Positions 1-9,744 of a stretch of DNA of 64,000 bases are shown piece after piece. How positions within the stretch are numbered: the first letter of the stretch is position 1; every line of letters begins with the position of its first letter. The stretch comes from Terriglobia bacterium (lineage in GTDB: Bacteria > Acidobacteriota > Terriglobia > Acidiferrales > UBA7541). The translations under genes and the position numbers were made by a program. The DNA lies in the NCBI GenBank assembly GCA_023512135.1, contig JAIMAG010000001.1:248001-312000 (forward strand). The letters are read 5' to 3'. The notes below the pieces were generated by a model, which was given only the letters and a program-made list of their open reading frames with translations, was not told where the DNA came from and made no database searches.

Positions 1-89
1 GCCACTTGAAAAATAAAGAGGGCGTCTTCTAACCCGGCTGAAGAATGTTGGAGGGAGTAAAACTTCACGAACAAAGGGGGAAGTTACCT

Positions 90-1760
90 ATGAAATTCTG
101 TGCAAGATTGCTGACGGGTTTCGCCATTGTGTTGCTCTGCTCGTTCATGTTGAGTCCGCACTCGGCGGTCCAAGGGCAGAGCCTTTCGGCCAAAGGGGCA
201 GAAACCAGCCTGAAGCAGTCGTCTGAGCCCACCAGAGACCTGAAGGTAGTCACGGCTTACACGCAGGGGGCACAAGTGTTTCAAAACACCACTTACATCA
301 AAGGAGCACGCCAGCGTGTAGAGTTTCCGGGCATGGTCTCACTGGTTCAGTGCGATTTGCACCGTACGGTGATCCTCAACCCCGCTGCCAAGCGATACAT
401 GATCCAAGCGCATGCTGCGAATCCACAGGCTTCCCCGGGTCAAGCGGCCCAGGCGGCTCCGCAAAGCTCTTTAGAAAGTTCTCTAGCCGGCGGCCAGGCA
501 CCCCGCGGCGGTGTGGTCACATGGCTCACCACGTTCACCGACACGAGGGAACGACAGCAGATGTTCGGGCTGGAGGCGCGTCGAATCCGGGCCGTGACCA
601 TCAAGCAAGTCGACGCCAACGCCTGCGACAAAACGCCCATACGCATCGAAACCGATGGGTGGTACGTGGATCTGCCGCAAAGCGCCTTCGCCTGCAAGAA
701 ACCAGACGCACTGCCGGAGCAGACCGAGCCCTCGGGCAAGGAATGTCACGACCGTGTGGAGATGCGCGTCGAGGGACAAGCAGTCCTAGGCTTTCCGGTG
801 AAGACGGTGACCACAACAGTCATCGGAGAAGGCGATAAGCAAGAGACATTCACAAGCACGGCCGAAGTCACCTTCCTGGAAGTTACCACACTCGATGCAT
901 CGCTTTTTGAGATCCCGTCCGACTATGCTGCGGCATCAGGCGCTACCGAACTGATTCCGGCGATGGCTCAGGGCGCTAGCTTGGAGGACGCGCTCTTCGG
1001 CTCCACTGCCGACGGCAAGGCCATGGCGGCACCGAAAAAGCCGGGCGTCATCCGGATCGGTGTGCTTGAGCCTATCAACCGTTCCACGCGCACGGTGAAC
1101 ACACGGATGCTGTGGCTGGACCTGGTGGGCAAATTCTCGAAGGCACCCTACGAGGCGCTGCGGCTGTCGGGAACCTCGGCCGCAGACATCGAGGCGGAAG
1201 CGAATCGTTTGGGGTGCGACTACATCCTGCTCGCCGAGATCACCGAGGTCAAGACCTCGAAGGGCGGTGGGTTCGGCGGCTTCCTCAAGGCAGCCAGCGG
1301 TGGCGGGCCACCCAAGGATGTACACGAGGTCAAGGCTGGCTACCGGCTGTTCGCTACGGGTGCCACCTCAGCGCCGCGCCTGACCGGGGAAGTGAAAGCC
1401 TCGAGCGGCGGTAAATTCGGGTTCGACTCGGCGCTGCAGATGGCTTCTTTCGGGATGCAAATGTACTCCAGCTTCAGCATGATGCGGGCGATGAAAGGAT
1501 TCGGGGGGATGGGCTTGTTTCCGGGAATGAACCTCCTGGGTGGTTTCGGCTCCTTCGGTGGGGTCGGCGGTATCGGCCAAAGCTACTTCGATCCAAGCTC
1601 GATGGCCATGAACTCGATCATGGGCTTGGCTGCCGGTGGAGGACTCGGCGGAGCGCCCGTCGAACCCTCGCAGGCGGAGGTGCATCAAACGGTGTCTTCT
1701 GCGTTTGACAGCCTTGCCAAGGCCGTCACTGCGAAGCTCGGGCCCGCGAAACCCAAATAG
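90..1760 (+). CDS. secreted protein of unknown function, Gly/Met-rich C-terminus
   Basis: The ATG at 90 follows a purine-rich ribosome site (AAAGGGGGAAG, about 7 bases upstream) and begins a clear signal peptide (residues 1-30, cleavage near VQG-QS); an upstream in-frame ATG at 45 would bury it. The mature N-terminal half (about 45-290) has the look of DUF4412-type periplasmic proteins: a KGARQRVEFPG segment, a QCD motif, a 'LNP..KRY' strand and several cysteines. A second domain (about 295-410) starts with VIRIGVLEP and ends in a strand reading YILLAEITEV, as in CsgG/curli-type secretion lipoproteins. The last 130 residues are rich in Gly, Met and Phe. The next gene is on the same strand 148 bases downstream. 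The domain matches are from memory of family style; the function is unknown. Confidence 0.7.
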   Translation: MKFCARLLTGFAIVLLCSFMLSPHSAVQGQSLSAKGAETSLKQSSEPTRDLKVVTAYTQGAQVFQNTTYIKGARQRVEFPGMVSLVQCDLHRTVILNPAAKRYMIQAHAANPQASPGQAAQAAPQSSLESSLAGGQAPRGGVVTWLTTFTDTRERQQMFGLEARRIRAVTIKQVDANACDKTPIRIETDGWYVDLPQSAFACKKPDALPEQTEPSGKECHDRVEMRVEGQAVLGFPVKTVTTTVIGEGDKQETFTSTAEVTFLEVTTLDASLFEIPSDYAAASGATELIPAMAQGASLEDALFGSTADGKAMAAPKKPGVIRIGVLEPINRSTRTVNTRMLWLDLVGKFSKAPYEALRLSGTSAADIEAEANRLGCDYILLAEITEVKTSKGGGFGGFLKAASGGGPPKDVHEVKAGYRLFATGATSAPRLTGEVKASSGGKFGFDSALQMASFGMQMYSSFSMMRAMKGFGGMGLFPGMNLLGGFGSFGGVGGIGQSYFDPSSMAMNSIMGLAAGGGLGGAPVEPSQAEVHQTVSSAFDSLAKAVTAKLGPAKPK

Positions 1761-1908: not shown

Positions 1909-3588
1909 ATGGGAAGGAAGAGAATCGCACTGAGAGGCATTGCAGTTGCCGCCCTGGCGTTGGTGGTGGTTACGCTCCTGCTCGCCTTGAGGGATGAACC
2001 TGGGTCCCTCAGCTTGGGCCCCTACGATGAGTCCCTGGTGCAAAAACTGGTGAGCGAGGAGGGGCTGACCCCCACGGGAGCCATTTTTCTGGCCCTGACA
2101 AAGTTTGAAGTGCAAGCTCTGGCTAAGAACGAATACCGGATCCGTGCTAGCTTTCCCACAAAGAATACAGCCGACTTTACCATCACCTTGCTGGCAGACC
2201 AGAAGCAAAGAAAAATTCCCGTTGCTCCCGCAAGCGGCGGCAACTCCTTGCCCATCTACCTTGCAGCGTCCGATTTCGACGAGCAAGCTGGAGGATTGCA
2301 GTTCAGGCTCGAATTCCTCATTGCCGCGGATGCCTTTCCGGAAGGGAGCCTCGACAGTTTCCGTTCTTCGACAGGTTCATCAAAAATAGAGAGCTTCCTC
2401 GACTCCGTTTTCCCCCGGGCTTATGCCGCTGCGGCTCGGGCGCCCGATGACGTGGATTCTGATCCTGTTGTACGGACTATCGTCAAGGGGTTTGTAACGA
2501 GGTTTCGAAACGAGCTACTGAAGGCATTCGAGCAGGCTGCCGCGAAGGACGTGCCATTGCCGAAAAGTGGGGTTGTGAAACCTCTGACAACCGTGGAAAG
2601 CTCCACTAAAAGCGTCATCAGCTCCTGGGACGCACGCGAGGAGCATTTGAGTTGGATGGAGCAGCTTGAGCGGGCCCAACGTTGCGCAGAGAACCCTACC
2701 AATCCCCTTACCAAGAAGATGTATCAGGAAGTTGCGGGGAGCAAGGAGAAGACCCTCCAGCTCATTCAGGAGGCCAGGCTGGAGGTGCAAATGAACACGG
2801 CCGTCAGGTTCCTCGGCATAATGAACAAGCTGGCTTTGCGACTCGTGAGCCCACACCCGATCATCGGTATCGTTGCGGACGCTATGGTGGCCTGGTCCGA
2901 CGGTACCTTGAAAGGGGTGAATAGCGAACGCGTTCTGGCTATACAAAGGATGGTGACGGAATGCAAGGAGGAAGAGGAGAAAGAGCCACAGGAATCAAAA
3001 CAATTACCTGAACCCCAAGTGGAGCCGCGTGTTGGTGAGGAAGACTGGCTGCCACTCCCTAAAGTGCCTGGCTGGCATGGCACCGTGACCTATAATTTCC
3101 GGATGGATGGTCCCAGACACTTTCATGAAACGCAGCTCGACATTAACCTGTCGGGGAACGGCGGCAACTGGTCGGGGCGGGTTCAAGGCAAATCGTGGAA
3201 TGAATGCATAGTTACCCTAGCGCACGGAACCGAAAGCGGCCGCGTAGTGCTGGACAAATCTCTCCCGGGCCCAGGCGAACTTTCTTGGTCAATAGACTTC
3301 TTGGACTCCCAAGGAAGCTACACCTTCGGCGGGGTGACTGGTCCCTTTATTGTCAGGACGTGGCGCGAGTGGGCTCCATCGAGGGACCCTGATTGTAAGG
3401 GCACGTTGCCGCCGCCTGAGGAGACTTCCTTGCCCTTTGCTGTCGTCAGCCCCGCTGAGGGTGAGCCGCTGGGCAGGATAGACCCCGCAAACTCCAACGT
3501 CCTTTCCGGGTCCAAGACCTGGCGGTACGAATCGTCGTCCGGACGGGCTACGTTCACTCTGAAATGGCACCTGACCCGGCAGGAATAG
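1909..3588 (+). CDS. membrane-anchored protein of unknown function
   Basis: The start is the ATG at 1909, preceded by AAGGAGTAAGGAGTCAGG (Shine-Dalgarno at about 1890). Residues 8-27 form one hydrophobic segment with a short basic head, so the rest (about 530 residues) is probably periplasmic on an uncleaved anchor. Three blocks can be told apart: a beta-rich N-terminal part (about 30-150) ending in a YAAAARAPDDVD linker, an alpha-helical middle (about 170-350) with many Lys/Glu, then an acidic Pro/Glu linker and a beta-rich C-terminal block (about 390-555) rich in Trp and Gly. I recognise no enzyme motif. Base composition looks clearly less GC-rich than the genes after 5.8 kb, which fits an accessory region. 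It could be a host-surface or element cargo protein. Confidence 0.65.
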   Translation: MGRKRIALRGIAVAALALVVVTLLLALRDEPGSLSLGPYDESLVQKLVSEEGLTPTGAIFLALTKFEVQALAKNEYRIRASFPTKNTADFTITLLADQKQRKIPVAPASGGNSLPIYLAASDFDEQAGGLQFRLEFLIAADAFPEGSLDSFRSSTGSSKIESFLDSVFPRAYAAAARAPDDVDSDPVVRTIVKGFVTRFRNELLKAFEQAAAKDVPLPKSGVVKPLTTVESSTKSVISSWDAREEHLSWMEQLERAQRCAENPTNPLTKKMYQEVAGSKEKTLQLIQEARLEVQMNTAVRFLGIMNKLALRLVSPHPIIGIVADAMVAWSDGTLKGVNSERVLAIQRMVTECKEEEEKEPQESKQLPEPQVEPRVGEEDWLPLPKVPGWHGTVTYNFRMDGPRHFHETQLDINLSGNGGNWSGRVQGKSWNECIVTLAHGTESGRVVLDKSLPGPGELSWSIDFLDSQGSYTFGGVTGPFIVRTWREWAPSRDPDCKGTLPPPEETSLPFAVVSPAEGEPLGRIDPANSNVLSGSKTWRYESSSGRATFTLKWHLTRQE

Positions 3589-3670
3589 GGATAACTGCGG
3601 AAGTCAGCAGCCTTTCCTGAGCACGGGGGCATGCCGCCCGAACCAAAGCTGCCGGAATCCCCCTGCCGCT

Positions 3671-4085
3671 TCAGGCGCGGGGGTGGGTTTTGTCGTAGAC
3701 CTCGATGAGCTGGCGGATGGAGGCGTGCGTGTAACGCTGCGTGGCGGAGGATCGTCTTTTCCTTTACAATCTTGGCGTGGTATTCAACGTCCAGCCTGTG
3801 AGGGACGCCATCGCCGATGCTCGCCAGGTAGTCTGCACCGCCGATGGTTTGGATTCCACCGTCGCGCTGCGCGGCGTCGTACAAGGTGCTCGGCGTTATT
3901 GGCGCACCTGAGTGGGCGAGGTTCAACATATGGCGGTAAATCCGCGAATTGCGATAGTCGAAAAAGTCGTCGGGCGTGAGGATCCTCGCCGCCTGCTCCA
4001 GAGCTGCGCCTTCGGTAACGATCACCGCGCCTAGGACTGCATGCTCGGCTATCAGATTCCGGTGTGGCGGGTGATCAATTCGCAT
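3671..4085 (-). pseudogene. DnaB-like N-terminal domain gene, frameshifted and truncated
   Basis: Reading from the ATG at 4085 (site GGAAGGAG about 9 bases upstream), the product matches the N-terminal domain of replicative helicase DnaB closely in pattern: 'AEHAVLGAVI', 'ILTPDDFFDYRNSRIYRHM', 'IGGADYLASI', 'VEYHAKIVKEKTILR'. Around 3741-3750 the sensible reading changes frame: the original frame turns into Arg/Pro-rich nonsense, while the shifted frame continues as YTHASIRQLIEVYDKTHPRA and stops at 3671. The DnaB RecA-type ATPase domain is absent. So this is either a small phage/element protein built only of the DnaB-N fold that has taken a frameshift, or a decayed helicase. It overlaps the preceding HTH gene by 11 bases (4075-4085), which suggests they were once co-expressed. 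Confidence 0.65.
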
Positions 4086-4293
4086 TCGTGATGCTCCTTC
4101 CCTTTGCATTTGCTTTTGTCGGATGATCTCGTCGAGCGAACGCCTGCAGCGAACGGTATTCGAGCAAAACGCGTCTTCCGATGCGCCTGGGCTTCAATTC
4201 GTCGCTCGAGATGAGGTAGTCAAGCGTGCGGAGACTGAGGCCCAAGATGCGGGCAGCAGTCCGCCGGTCAACCAGCAACGGAGCATGCTCCAT
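4075..4293 (-). CDS. small helix-turn-helix (excisionase/AlpA-like) protein
   Basis: The 72-residue protein from the ATG at 4293 has a good ribosome site (AAGGAG, 8 bases upstream). Residues 8-55 carry the winged-helix pattern of MerR/AlpA/excisionase-type DNA-binding domains: 'VDRRTAARILGLSLRTLDYLI' then 'LKPRRIGRRVLLEYRSLQAFA', where the second half is the wing that reads 'IGRRVLL' in this family. Such proteins in mobile elements act as excision directionality factors or as regulators of the neighbouring integrase or replication genes. Its stop overlaps the start of the DnaB-N-like gene. No integrase is visible nearby, so the partner may lie left of the window or be lost. The tail (about 55-72) is basic and low-complexity. 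Confidence 0.7.
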   Translation of the reverse strand: MEHAPLLVDRRTAARILGLSLRTLDYLISSDELKPRRIGRRVLLEYRSLQAFARRDHPTKANAKGRSITNAN

Positions 4294-4311
4294 GTCTGTT
4301 CTCCTTGTCAC

Positions 4312-4754
4312 TCCTTGCCCGCTTTTGCAAGCGGGTGCACGCTTGGTTTATCATTGAATAAATGCGACAGGAGCCCCTAAGTGACGAACAGGACGTGAGT
4401 TGTCTGCATGGTCGCCTCCAGGAGTGGAGCAAAAATCTCGTATCGGGAGCTAAGCCTTCGCTGTCCCCCGTGGAAGTGCTAACCGGAAAGTACTTCTGTG
4501 CGGAACTGTGCCCCATGCTGGATTACGAGAAACCCACACGCGCCCTTTGCCTACAGGTTGGCTTGAGGAAAAGAGGTCCCGGCAGACACCGGGACCGGTA
4601 CATTTATCTGAGAATTGGGCTGGCGCACAGGCGGCTCAGTCAGCCCCGGGCCTGGCATAGAGCACTGGGCGGACTCTTGCCGACGAGTCAAGCAAGGCGC
4701 CACCGTCGGCTCAGTTTTGCCAGGCTATCCCGCAACATTTACTGGACTCCTCTC
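4312..4754 (+). other. stretch without a convincing gene
   Basis: A reading frame stays open across this stretch (from the ATG at 4362) and runs into the decayed gene that follows, but its translation (many Arg, Cys, Trp, no recognisable motif) does not look like a protein under selection. Sequence just upstream of 4362 (TTGGTTTATCATTGAATAAATGC) is AT-richer and could carry a promoter, but I see no good -35/-10 pair. The only clear structure is the perfect inverted repeat at 4575-4596. Confidence 0.4.
4575..4596. repeat. perfect 8-bp inverted repeat
   Basis: The arms GGTCCCGG (4575-4582) and CCGGGACC (4589-4596) are exact reverse complements separated by six bases. There is no T-run on either side, so it is a poor intrinsic terminator. 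It could be an operator or a recombination-related structure in the accessory region. Confidence 0.5.
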
Positions 4755-5474
4755 ATGCCTCCGGACGATTTGAAAGCGCAATTGATCATCGCTTTGGTTC
4801 AGCTCCGCGTCTTGCCTCTAAACTGTAAAGCCAGCTCATGGCTAGAAATCTACCTGAAGCGCTTTCGCATAGGTTCGCGATGGGGCCACAAGCCCAGCCC
4901 CAGTGAACTTAAAACGATTCGACAATCGGTAGTGAGGCACTTGCTCTGTCACTTTTCCAGATCCAGAGGATTTTCGCAGCTTTCGGCGGTACGTTCGCAG
5001 GATAATCGACATCGAAACGCGCCGAGAGCTAACCCATTTTGATCCCATTCCGACCGGCAAGGATTTTCAGGAGAGCGAAGGGGCCTATACAGAAGAGTCT
5101 CAGCCACAAGACACTTACGGCGCGCTTTATCATGGCGAGTTGCAGGAGTCTCGGAAGAGGCAAAGAACCGTAAGCGGCCATAGTGAACACAGTTCTATGC
5201 AAGATTTGAGCATTTTGGACGTCGCACGCCTTCTCAGGTGCAGTCAAGGGTACTTGTACCGCCTCATTCACAGCGGTGCCTTACAAGCTATCAGGGATAT
5301 GGGAAGACCCGTATCTCGGTGAGCGAGCTTCAGCGCCTCCAGCAAGTATTCGATGCCCGTCGAAAGCTGCGAGCCGAGAAACTCGAACTGATCAAGAAAG
5401 GGATGACCTACGACGCCGCAAGACAGGCAGTCTACCGCATGCACGGAGCCGCGCCGAGCATTACTCGGAGATAA
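4755..5474 (+). pseudogene. decayed gene ending in a helix-turn-helix domain (two frame changes)
   Basis: Three successive segments read like protein but lie in different frames. From the ATG at 4755: MPPDDLKAQLIIALVQLRVL and onward to about 4945. Then, in the next frame, 'FPDPEDFRSFRRYVRRIIDIE' and on to 'TRRELTHFDPIPTGKDF', reaching an excisionase-like HTH 'LSILDVARLLRCSQGYLYRLI' and stopping at 5322. Then, back in the first frame from about 5300, 'RISVSELQRLQQVFDARRKLR', which is the missing wing and C-terminal helix of the same HTH fold (as in AlpA/Xis 'R..RIP.SEL..'). The middle segment has no ATG/GTG/TTG of its own before 5140. The simplest reading is one gene of about 240 codons with one shift near 4940-4955 and a compensating one near 5300. 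Sequencing error is possible but two events make decay more likely. Confidence 0.5.
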
Positions 5475-5815
5475 CGACGTTCTTCCTTGGTGTCAGTTGT
5501 AGTGTCAGTTGATTTTTCAGTATGATGCTCGACGGTGCGCGATGTTGCATGAAAGGTCTTGCGATCGAACCCTTTCAGATTCAATGAGAAAGATGTACGA
5601 TGTAGCAAGGCAATGCTCGGACGCGCACAGCGCAGAAGAGGCGGAAAACAGACTTAAAATCCTCTGGGGATTTTACCCCGTGTGGGTTCAACTCCCACCC
5701 CGGGCACCACTCGCGGACAGGACACATGCGGCTTCTGGACAAGAGGGGGCGTGCATGGGCAGTGAGATTGCTGCGCGATGACGACGCGTCGGTTCGCGGG
5801 ATGAGGTGGGTTGCC
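5475..5815 (+). other. intergenic stretch holding the tRNA-Leu scar
   Basis: Apart from the tRNA-Leu(UAA) fragment at 5651-5709 I see no gene. Short frames here are translations of the tRNA piece. The stretch after 5710 is the leader of the TPR gene that starts at 5816. Confidence 0.5.
5651..5709 (+). other. 3' portion of tRNA-Leu(UAA), probable attachment-site (att) scar
   Basis: From the anticodon loop (CTTAAAA, 5653-5659; anticodon TAA 5655-5657) to the CCA (5707-5709) the sequence is a textbook class II tRNA-Leu 3' half: a long variable arm with a GGGG/CCCC stem, a perfect T-arm (GTGGG-TTCAACT-CCCAC, 5682-5698) and acceptor strand CCCGGGC (5699-5705). The matching 5' half is missing: there is no GCCCGGG acceptor strand, no D-arm, and the base-paired partner of the 3' anticodon stem does not fit. 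Integrases commonly recombine in the anticodon-to-3'-end part of tRNA genes, leaving such a duplicate at one border. The fragment sits exactly between the odd, decayed region and ordinary chromosomal genes. The intact tRNA copy is expected left of the window. Confidence 0.7.
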
Positions 5816-6850
5816 ATGCGTCGAGCAGCCTTCTGGTTCTGGTTTGTGTGGGTCTTGTGTGGCCCGGTCGGAGTGGAACCCGCGGCGGCTCAGGTAGCCA
5901 TCCAGTCGCCAGTCGGTGGTGTGATCATCCGCGGGCAGGTCTATGGTCCGGACGGGTTGCCGTTTCGGAAGCAGATACGTCTGGAGGTTCGTGAGCAGAG
6001 CCCGCGCAGCCGGCCGGAGTACATCTACACCGACACGCTCGGGCGGTTCGAGTTTCAAGGGCGCACCCAGGTCATCCAGATCATCCGCGTGGAATCCGAC
6101 GGCGAAAGCTATGCGGAGACGGTGGTGGATTTTATTCCTTCGGGCATCAGTCCTTTTGTGCACGTCTACCTGCGCCGGCTGGAGAAGCCCGTTGCGCCCA
6201 AACCGGAAGAGTCCATCACGAGTGCTGCGGCGCTGACGCCGGTGCCGCGGGGTGCGCGGCGAGAGTTTGAGCGCGGCGTGGAGCTGATGCAGAAGAACCG
6301 GCCGGCCGAGGCGCGAGCGCGGTTCGAAGCGGCAATCCAACTGTTTCCAGACTATGTAGAGGCGTACAACGAGCTGGCGGTGCTCCTGCTCCGGGAGGGC
6401 CAACTGGAAGCCGCGGAAGTGCACCTGCGCCGGGCGCTGGAGATCGATCCGGCAGCAGCCAACGTGCTGCTGAACCTGGGTCTGTGTCTGGTGCGCAGGG
6501 GCCGGCCGAGCGAAGCAGTCCGGTTTCTCGACCGAGCTGTGCAACTGCAGCCGAGGAACGCGCCGGCGCAACTTCTCTACGGCGTGGCCCTGTTCCTGGA
6601 GGGTCGGGAAGATCTGGCGGAGCCGGTGTTGCTGCGTGCCTATGAGCTGGGTGGAAAACAGGTCTCGGAAGCGCAGTATCACCTCGCACGCATCTACCTG
6701 AAGCGCAACGACGCGGCCCGCGCCGCACGGGCGCTGGAAACCTATCTGCAGGATACCCCCAACGCCCCGAACGCAGCGCAACTGCAGGAAACGTTGCGAC
6801 AGCTCCAGCAGACCGCGAAGAAACCGCAGACCGAAGCGCCACAATTTTGA
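5816..6850 (+). CDS. secreted TPR protein with N-terminal carboxypeptidase-regulatory-like domain
   Basis: The ATG at 5816 is chosen over 5726 and 5801 because GAGGTGGG lies just upstream and it opens directly on a signal peptide (residues 1-26, cleaved near AAAQ). Residues 40-115 form a beta-sandwich of the carboxypeptidase regulatory-like type ('IRGQVYGPDGLPFRKQIRLEV', 'TLGRFEFQG'). Residues 140-330 hold about five tetratricopeptide repeats ('AIQLFPDYVEAYNELAVLLL', 'ALEIDPAAANVLLNLGLCLV'). Such proteins are protein-binding scaffolds in the periplasm or on the outer surface. A second gene of the same architecture lies at 57358-58347. It is the first normal-looking gene to the right of the tRNA-Leu scar. 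The partner protein is unknown. Confidence 0.85.
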   Translation: MRRAAFWFWFVWVLCGPVGVEPAAAQVAIQSPVGGVIIRGQVYGPDGLPFRKQIRLEVREQSPRSRPEYIYTDTLGRFEFQGRTQVIQIIRVESDGESYAETVVDFIPSGISPFVHVYLRRLEKPVAPKPEESITSAAALTPVPRGARREFERGVELMQKNRPAEARARFEAAIQLFPDYVEAYNELAVLLLREGQLEAAEVHLRRALEIDPAAANVLLNLGLCLVRRGRPSEAVRFLDRAVQLQPRNAPAQLLYGVALFLEGREDLAEPVLLRAYELGGKQVSEAQYHLARIYLKRNDAARAARALETYLQDTPNAPNAAQLQETLRQLQQTAKKPQTEAPQF

Positions 6851-9331: not shown

Positions 9332-9744
9332 TTCAGAATGAAATTGGTTTTCGATCCGTTCGCTGCGGCCCGACAAGTGCCCACCCGGATCCGCTCCCGG
9401 CCCTTTCCCGCACCGGCGCGTGCGGCGGGCGCAGAAAAAAAGAAAACAGGAGCGATCCGCTTCGCCGTGTGGTGCTCGATTCTGAACCCCGCTACCAGGT
9501 GGGTGCCCTGCGCCTGCCTTCAGGCTTTCCTCGAACCGTGTTCTGCCGGAGCAGCCACGCTGTCGGGGACGTGCTCAACAGCAGGACGACGGGGGCTCCC
9601 GGAGGTCCAGTGTTGGTTCAACAAATCGTTACAGCCATCACGCACGTCGCAGACCAGCTCCCCTGCTATTCTCGCCCCGACCCTGCAGCGGGTCAACCGA
9701 GGTATTCCCACAGAAAACCGGCTCTGGGCACCGGCCCGGTCCGG
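9332..9744. other. intergenic stretch, nothing firm
   Basis: This lies between the ymdB start and the TonB-receptor stop, both on the minus strand. It should hold the ymdB promoter. An A-rich run at 9435-9446 (T-rich on the minus strand) follows only a 4-bp stem, so I do not call it a terminator. Open frames here are shadows. Confidence 0.4.

Follow-up and report, generated by a model that had tools for sequence, protein, structure and literature searches.

The 59-bp piece of tRNA-Leu(UAA) found in this Terriglobia bacterium is, with a probability of roughly 95%, the attR of a decayed 32.3-kb integrative element (C44:221446-253709) that entered the tRNA-Leu(UAA) gene via a tyrosine integrase. 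This reading is based on an identical direct repeat, an intact tRNA, an empty site, a broken integrase, motifs at both ends, and an Hma cargo accompanied by excisionase-like and DnaB-like remnants. The model draws on draft genomes (51 contigs for our own, 90% completeness for the relative) and on one same-genus genome, and what it says about binding and excision is read from sequence. The result is one clean scar: of the related genomes, one carries the insert and one lacks it, both ends are placed to the base, the integrase is in decay and the defence cargo is still open. The island itself is ordinary and of a known kind; the interest rests on the use of both tRNA polarities by the clade to which its integrase belongs.

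The tRNA-Leu fragment and its intact partner

The window, which is the whole stretch of 64,000 nucleotides analysed here, lies at C44:248001-312000 in a draft genome of 2.83 Mb and 51 contigs. Two features define the boundary.

Window 5651..5709 (C44:253651-253709), + strand: displaced 3' part of tRNA-Leu(UAA), 59 bp from the anticodon stem to CCA; putative attR core repeat, from the 100% direct repeat and the empty site in G001
Window 5710..6850, + strand: resumption of the chromosome, with intergenic CTCGCGGACAG... and a TPR gene (5726-6850); directly 3' of the intact tRNA-Leu in G001

When the genome was searched with the fragment, 59/59 bases were matched in the same direction at C44:221387-221445 (E 1.9e-24), which is far beyond chance. 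This copy falls within an intact tRNA-Leu(UAA), located by ARAGORN at C44:221358-221445, of which it makes up the 3' part, and the gap between the two repeat copies, with the intact tRNA on the left, is 32,264 bp. The fragment begins at nt 30 of the tRNA, in the anticodon stem, and ends at CCA. No tRNA was reported at window 5651-5709 by ARAGORN or Rfam, and the lack of an ARAGORN call there indicates that only the portion from nt 30 to CCA is present. A sequence-only reading had described a 3' fragment of tRNA-Leu(UAA) with its 5' half missing, marking the edge of an integrative element, and had proposed a search for an intact plus-orientation tRNA-Leu(UAA), an identical direct repeat of 40-60 bp and an integrase on the left, and for a related genome without the insert. 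The description of the fragment was confirmed to the base, and the repeat, the intact tRNA, the integrase and the empty site were all found. Three things went beyond that reading: a tandem motif resembling arm sites at each end, the Hma locus carried as cargo, and the preference of most relatives of the integrase for the 5' half of the tRNA.

The sub-sites of tRNA genes were reportedly defined in Williams 2002. In the present element the crossover would most likely have taken place in the anticodon loop, at about window 5653-5659. We propose that the element carried its own tRNA 3' half and that the original 3' half was moved 32 kb downstream. Since the element would have supplied its own 3' half, the tRNA at attL would be whole and its native promoter kept. 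The arrangement is like that of the islands collected in Islander: one end has an intact tRNA, the other a 3' fragment that has been displaced but keeps its direction, and a tyrosine integrase lies inside beside the intact tRNA. The site is centred on the anticodon, which is the case for 2083/3919 of the Islander islands (PMC4383910). It is unlike them in that the integrase is broken.

A same-genus genome with the site empty

The comparison was made with one same-genus genome, G001, a draft that is 90% complete. In G001, tRNA-Leu(UAA) (C144:21300-21387) is directly followed by CTCGCGGACAGAACACAT and a TPR gene, while in the window the fragment is directly followed by CTCGCGGACAGGACACAT and a TPR gene whose protein is 84% identical to that of G001. 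By BLAST, G001:C144:21261-21387 matches the left tRNA and 21329-25195 matches the window starting at the fragment, and no sequence separates the two. The DNA on the right of the fragment is thus collinear with G001 at 84% identity, while the 32 kb on the left are missing from it, which bears out the proposal that accessory DNA lies to the left and normal chromosome to the right. Since the tRNA gene and the right flank are joined in G001 with nothing between them, the 32,264 bp between the repeats most probably represent an insertion into the tRNA gene, an exact loss in G001 being less likely.

The fragment could in principle have arisen by partial duplication of the tRNA through replication slippage or transposition, rather than by site-specific integration. 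Partial tRNA copies without integrases do occur, and the remnant of a Mutator-type transposase lies inside the island. However, the repeat stops within the anticodon stem, the ends carry an integrase gene as well as matching arm-type motifs, and the flanks in G001 are joined exactly at the tRNA. We therefore consider such an origin extremely improbable, the empty site and the integrase together ruling it out.

Two further observations were made on the flanking chromosome. A 12.5-kb stretch to the left of the intact tRNA-Leu (G000:C44:208773-221319; L067, L003) is also absent from G001 and has no bounding tRNA repeat; it encodes the end of an outer-membrane receptor-like barrel, an alanine racemase-like protein, a beta-lactamase-like protein and an amidohydrolase. 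To the right of the fragment, a 6S RNA was found at window 9450-9658 on the minus strand (Rfam RF00013, 73 bits).

The integrase and candidate arm-type sites

The integrase gene lies directly inside the left end on the minus strand, with 15 bp separating its stop from the intact tRNA-Leu. It is a single frame of 361 codons in which two TAG and two TAA codons occur as stops, and when these are read as X the product matches Pfam Phage_integrase at E 1.8e-22. The best homologues, 50-52% identical, are free of stops and likewise adjoin tRNAs. The four in-frame stops, together with the truncated DnaB-like gene described below, suggest that the element is now fixed and no longer mobile. It is very unlikely that the element still moves, either because the integrase works despite its stops through recoding or because another integrase, encoded on C39 of the same genome, acts in trans. 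The frame is otherwise preserved across its 361 codons, and C39 does hold a stop-free relative (49% identity) with an arm motif that differs by one mismatch; that integrase, however, is sited at another tRNA (Leu-UAG, 5' half). Recoding was set aside, given that stops of both kinds (TAG and TAA) are present and that the nearest relatives lack them.

A tandem repeat lies at the right end.

Window 5490..5511 (C44:253490-253511), + strand: tandem GTGTCAGTTG-TA-GTGTCAGTTG (22 bp), candidate arm-type sites

The motif, written GTGTCAGTTG-TR-GTGTCAGTTG to cover both ends, has a partner in the same direction at C44:221506-221527, over the 3' end of the integrase gene, and the two differ by one base. 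When up to two mismatches were allowed, the tandem motif had five matches in the 2.8-Mb genome, all at the ends of three such elements, while the reversed-pattern control had none. By analogy with lambda-type integrases, we regard these tandem 10-bp repeats as candidate arm-type sites, and the integrase would then bridge the core and arm sites lying 110-160 bp to either side.

The agreement between the motifs also bears on whether two or more elements accreted at the tRNA-Leu, the fragment being derived from an older or outer one whose integrase is lost or is represented by a second, truncated integrase inside the island (C44:245322-245765). This second integrase and the host-like genes in the island are consistent with accretion, as is the tandem remnant at the far end of the C39 element. 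On the other hand, the whole genome contains one extra copy of the tRNA-Leu 3' half only, and motifs at 221506 and 253490 that match but for one base are expected of a single pair. Accretion therefore seems unlikely, although clearly less so than continued mobility, and a single element with one pair of ends is preferred.

Cargo of the island

The part of the island that falls within the window encodes the following.

Window 45..1760, + strand: DUF4412 protein of 571 aa, island cargo (Pfam DUF4412 E 4.8e-5)
Window 1909..3588, + strand: 559-aa protein, island cargo (no Pfam or PHROG match)
Window 3318..4109, - strand: truncated DnaB-like gene, N-terminal domain without the helicase domain (Pfam DnaB N-terminal domain E 5.2e-23, residues 17-117)
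Window 4075..4311, - strand: HTH_17 protein, excisionase-like (Pfam HTH_17 E 3.8e-7, above the cut-off; PHROG excisionase/regulator E 5.4e-5)
Window 4362..5042, + strand: ORF of 226 aa (no Pfam or PHROG match)
Window 5140..5322, + strand: short HTH_17 protein, excisionase/AlpA-like (Pfam HTH_17 E 8.4e-6, just under the cut-off; PHROG excisionase E 2.9e-4)

The excisionase-like HTH proteins and the DnaB-N-like gene that had been read from the letters in this left part are both upheld by these domain matches. The protein at 5140..5322 may be the remnant of a recombination directionality factor. Of a phage-satellite module with replication and packaging genes beside the integrase, the window would hold remnants at most, namely the DnaB N-domain and HTH_17 genes.

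Further to the left, C44:234010-245264 encodes an SNF2 helicase with NOV_C, two small proteins, a DUF1156 methyltransferase, a HEPN (RiboL-PSP) protein and a DUF499 ATPase, and PADLOC recognised HmaA (E 1.3e-170), HmaB (7e-124) and HmaC (8.5e-97) in this one locus. Hma has been named as a candidate defence system (PMC8565338), and such loci have been regrouped as BREX-related systems centred on DUF499, in which HEPN RNases are frequent (PMC12839542). As in Hma and the Type-1 systems of this group, the SNF2 helicase, DUF1156 methyltransferase and DUF499 ATPase of the island are in one operon with a HEPN RNase alongside. The island locus differs in that HEPN is a separate gene, the helicase has a C-terminal NOV_C domain, and proteins of 247 and 197 aa are encoded between helicase and methyltransferase. 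This full, intact-looking HmaA-HmaB-HmaC locus is probably an anti-phage system. The 247- and 197-aa proteins, which lie between HmaA and HmaB (L004 3315-4645; C44:237315-238645) and are without a Pfam or PADLOC match, are possibly accessory parts of this Hma variant.

The remaining cargo comprises a CsgG-like protein, a Big_2 protein, a truncated Mutator transposase and a Trans_reg_C/TPR regulator. Among the larger ORFs scanned there was no relaxase, type IV coupling protein or secretion gene, as an integrating conjugative element would have. Since the second truncated integrase and host-like genes lie inside it, the island is a mosaic, and the 32 kb need not all have entered together.

Small relatives sharing the integrase type

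Four small relatives of 4.4-6.5 kb (L108, L110, L113 and L115) carry the same type of integrase together with a CHC2 zinc finger of DnaG type, a DUF3631 protein or an AAA_25 ATPase, and one of them also encodes a terminase small subunit (Terminase_2). We take this gene set to recall phage satellites of the PICI/P4 kind, and it is possible that the four are such satellites. They differ from that kind in that no helper phage or capsid-remodelling gene was identified for them, and the island of the window differs in having no terminase. Among the papers searched, none joined Acidobacteria, satellites, integrase and terminase small subunit.

Relatives of the integrase and the polarity of tRNA use

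Among 299 genomes of the window's class, 53 had a match to the integrase at E 1e-40 or better. In a phylum-wide sample the strong relatives were confined to this class, and a wider contig search with the integrase as query yielded a single weak relative (30%), in a Deltaproteobacteria MAG. A complete tRNA lies within 300 bp of the integrase stop in 29/51 loci, usually at 1-70 bp, and at one more locus there is a tRNA 5' half cut by the contig end. The targets are tRNAs for Leu (four anticodons), Lys, Arg, Asn, Met, Sec and Ser. At 22 of these 30 loci it is the 5' end of the tRNA that the integrase faces, and at the other 8 the 3' end. Since Islander lists 5' fragments for 159/3919 islands vs 3760 (PMC4383910), the difference between 22/30 and 159/3919 has a p of about 1e-24 when loci are treated as independent, which they are not fully. 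Most relatives of the window's integrase are thus unlike most Islander islands in taking the 5' half.

The half that is duplicated was established for elements whose far ends could be checked, and was the 5' half in nine and the 3' half in three; no far-end repeat was seen for L084, L085, L086, L087, L088, L090, L091, L092, L095, L096, L101 and L135, their contigs being too short or their elements running past the stretch analysed. The 5' half is repeated in the 5'-facing L078, L079, L080, L083, L094, L100 and L128 and in the C39 element of our own genome, where the repeats extend from tRNA nt 1, or a few bases before it, to about the anticodon loop and are mostly 40-47 bp long and 98-100% identical; it is also repeated in an element on C13. 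The 3' half, 59-62 bp, is repeated in the 3'-facing L076, the window's element and L098, and in L098 the integrase adjoins the 3' part of a tRNA-Leu, for which ARAGORN gives no complete tRNA. The C39 element (G000:C39:1409-21500; L105 1409-2615, L106 1190-1500) has an intact integrase, 49% identical to that of the window's element, at a tRNA-Leu(UAG) whose 5' half is duplicated. Its repeat is longer, at 192 columns, and includes the integrase 3' end, and the presence of this 3' end in the far copy suggests an earlier tandem insertion. The third element in this genome (C13:13239-16929, within G000:C13:13239-16960; L156 / L154) is 3.7 kb long. Its repeat, 68 bp, covers the 5' half of an intact tRNA-Sec, and the element contains the C-terminus of an integrase and one clear arm motif.

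When the 5'/3' label is placed on a tree of 37 integrases, five changes are required (4-5 in bootstrap trees), of which well supported branches force two. The polarity has therefore switched more than once, the number of switches being uncertain. In the eight elements checked, the tandem motif over the 3' end of the integrase gene has a second copy 105-151 bp inside the far core repeat, running the same way. The motif varies in sequence from element to element, and the copies at the two ends of any one element agree. Identity between motifs was 0.97 within elements vs 0.79 between elements, a result equalled in 3/20,000 permutations, the outermost base of a few entries having been set by hand. 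Protein coding would not explain this end-to-end match, since the far-end motif is presumed to lie outside genes.

Taken together, it is reasonably probable that the integrases form a clade, within one bacterial class, that has fixed tandem arm sites in its own 3' end and uses either tRNA polarity at the anticodon loop, mostly taking the 5' half and bringing a new promoter, with several switches of polarity. Since its members use opposite tRNA halves with the same kind of arm sites, the clade offers a natural experiment on the recognition of tRNA genes by tyrosine integrases. If the clade does behave in this way, target choice would rest on the symmetry of the anticodon stem-loop, and such islands would be undercounted by standard searches, which look for 3' fragments. 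The pTN3-like archaeal integrases also use the tRNA 5' half, with the tRNA expressed from the integrase side, an arrangement seldom seen in bacteria (PMC8371274). The 5'-half relatives found here resemble them in this respect, but pTN3-like integrases are an archaeal family and the window's own element takes the 3' half. A clade using both polarities with constant arm sites may be new, and polarity switching may have been described earlier.

The promoter was considered at the 5'-facing loci. In the 19-base stretch that stops 3 bp short of the tRNA, the best hexamer averages 4.48/6 matches to TATAAT, compared with 2.79 at random positions in integrase genes (maximum of 300 draws, 3.19), a control of G+C-rich coding sequence, so that composition may explain part of the excess. 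In the C13 element the -10 region is itself inside the repeat. Since the repeat begins at or just before tRNA nt 1, the promoter would arrive with the element, and the 5' elements thus appear to supply the promoter of the tRNA. This suggests that essential tRNAs of these bacteria are often under a promoter supplied by a mobile element.
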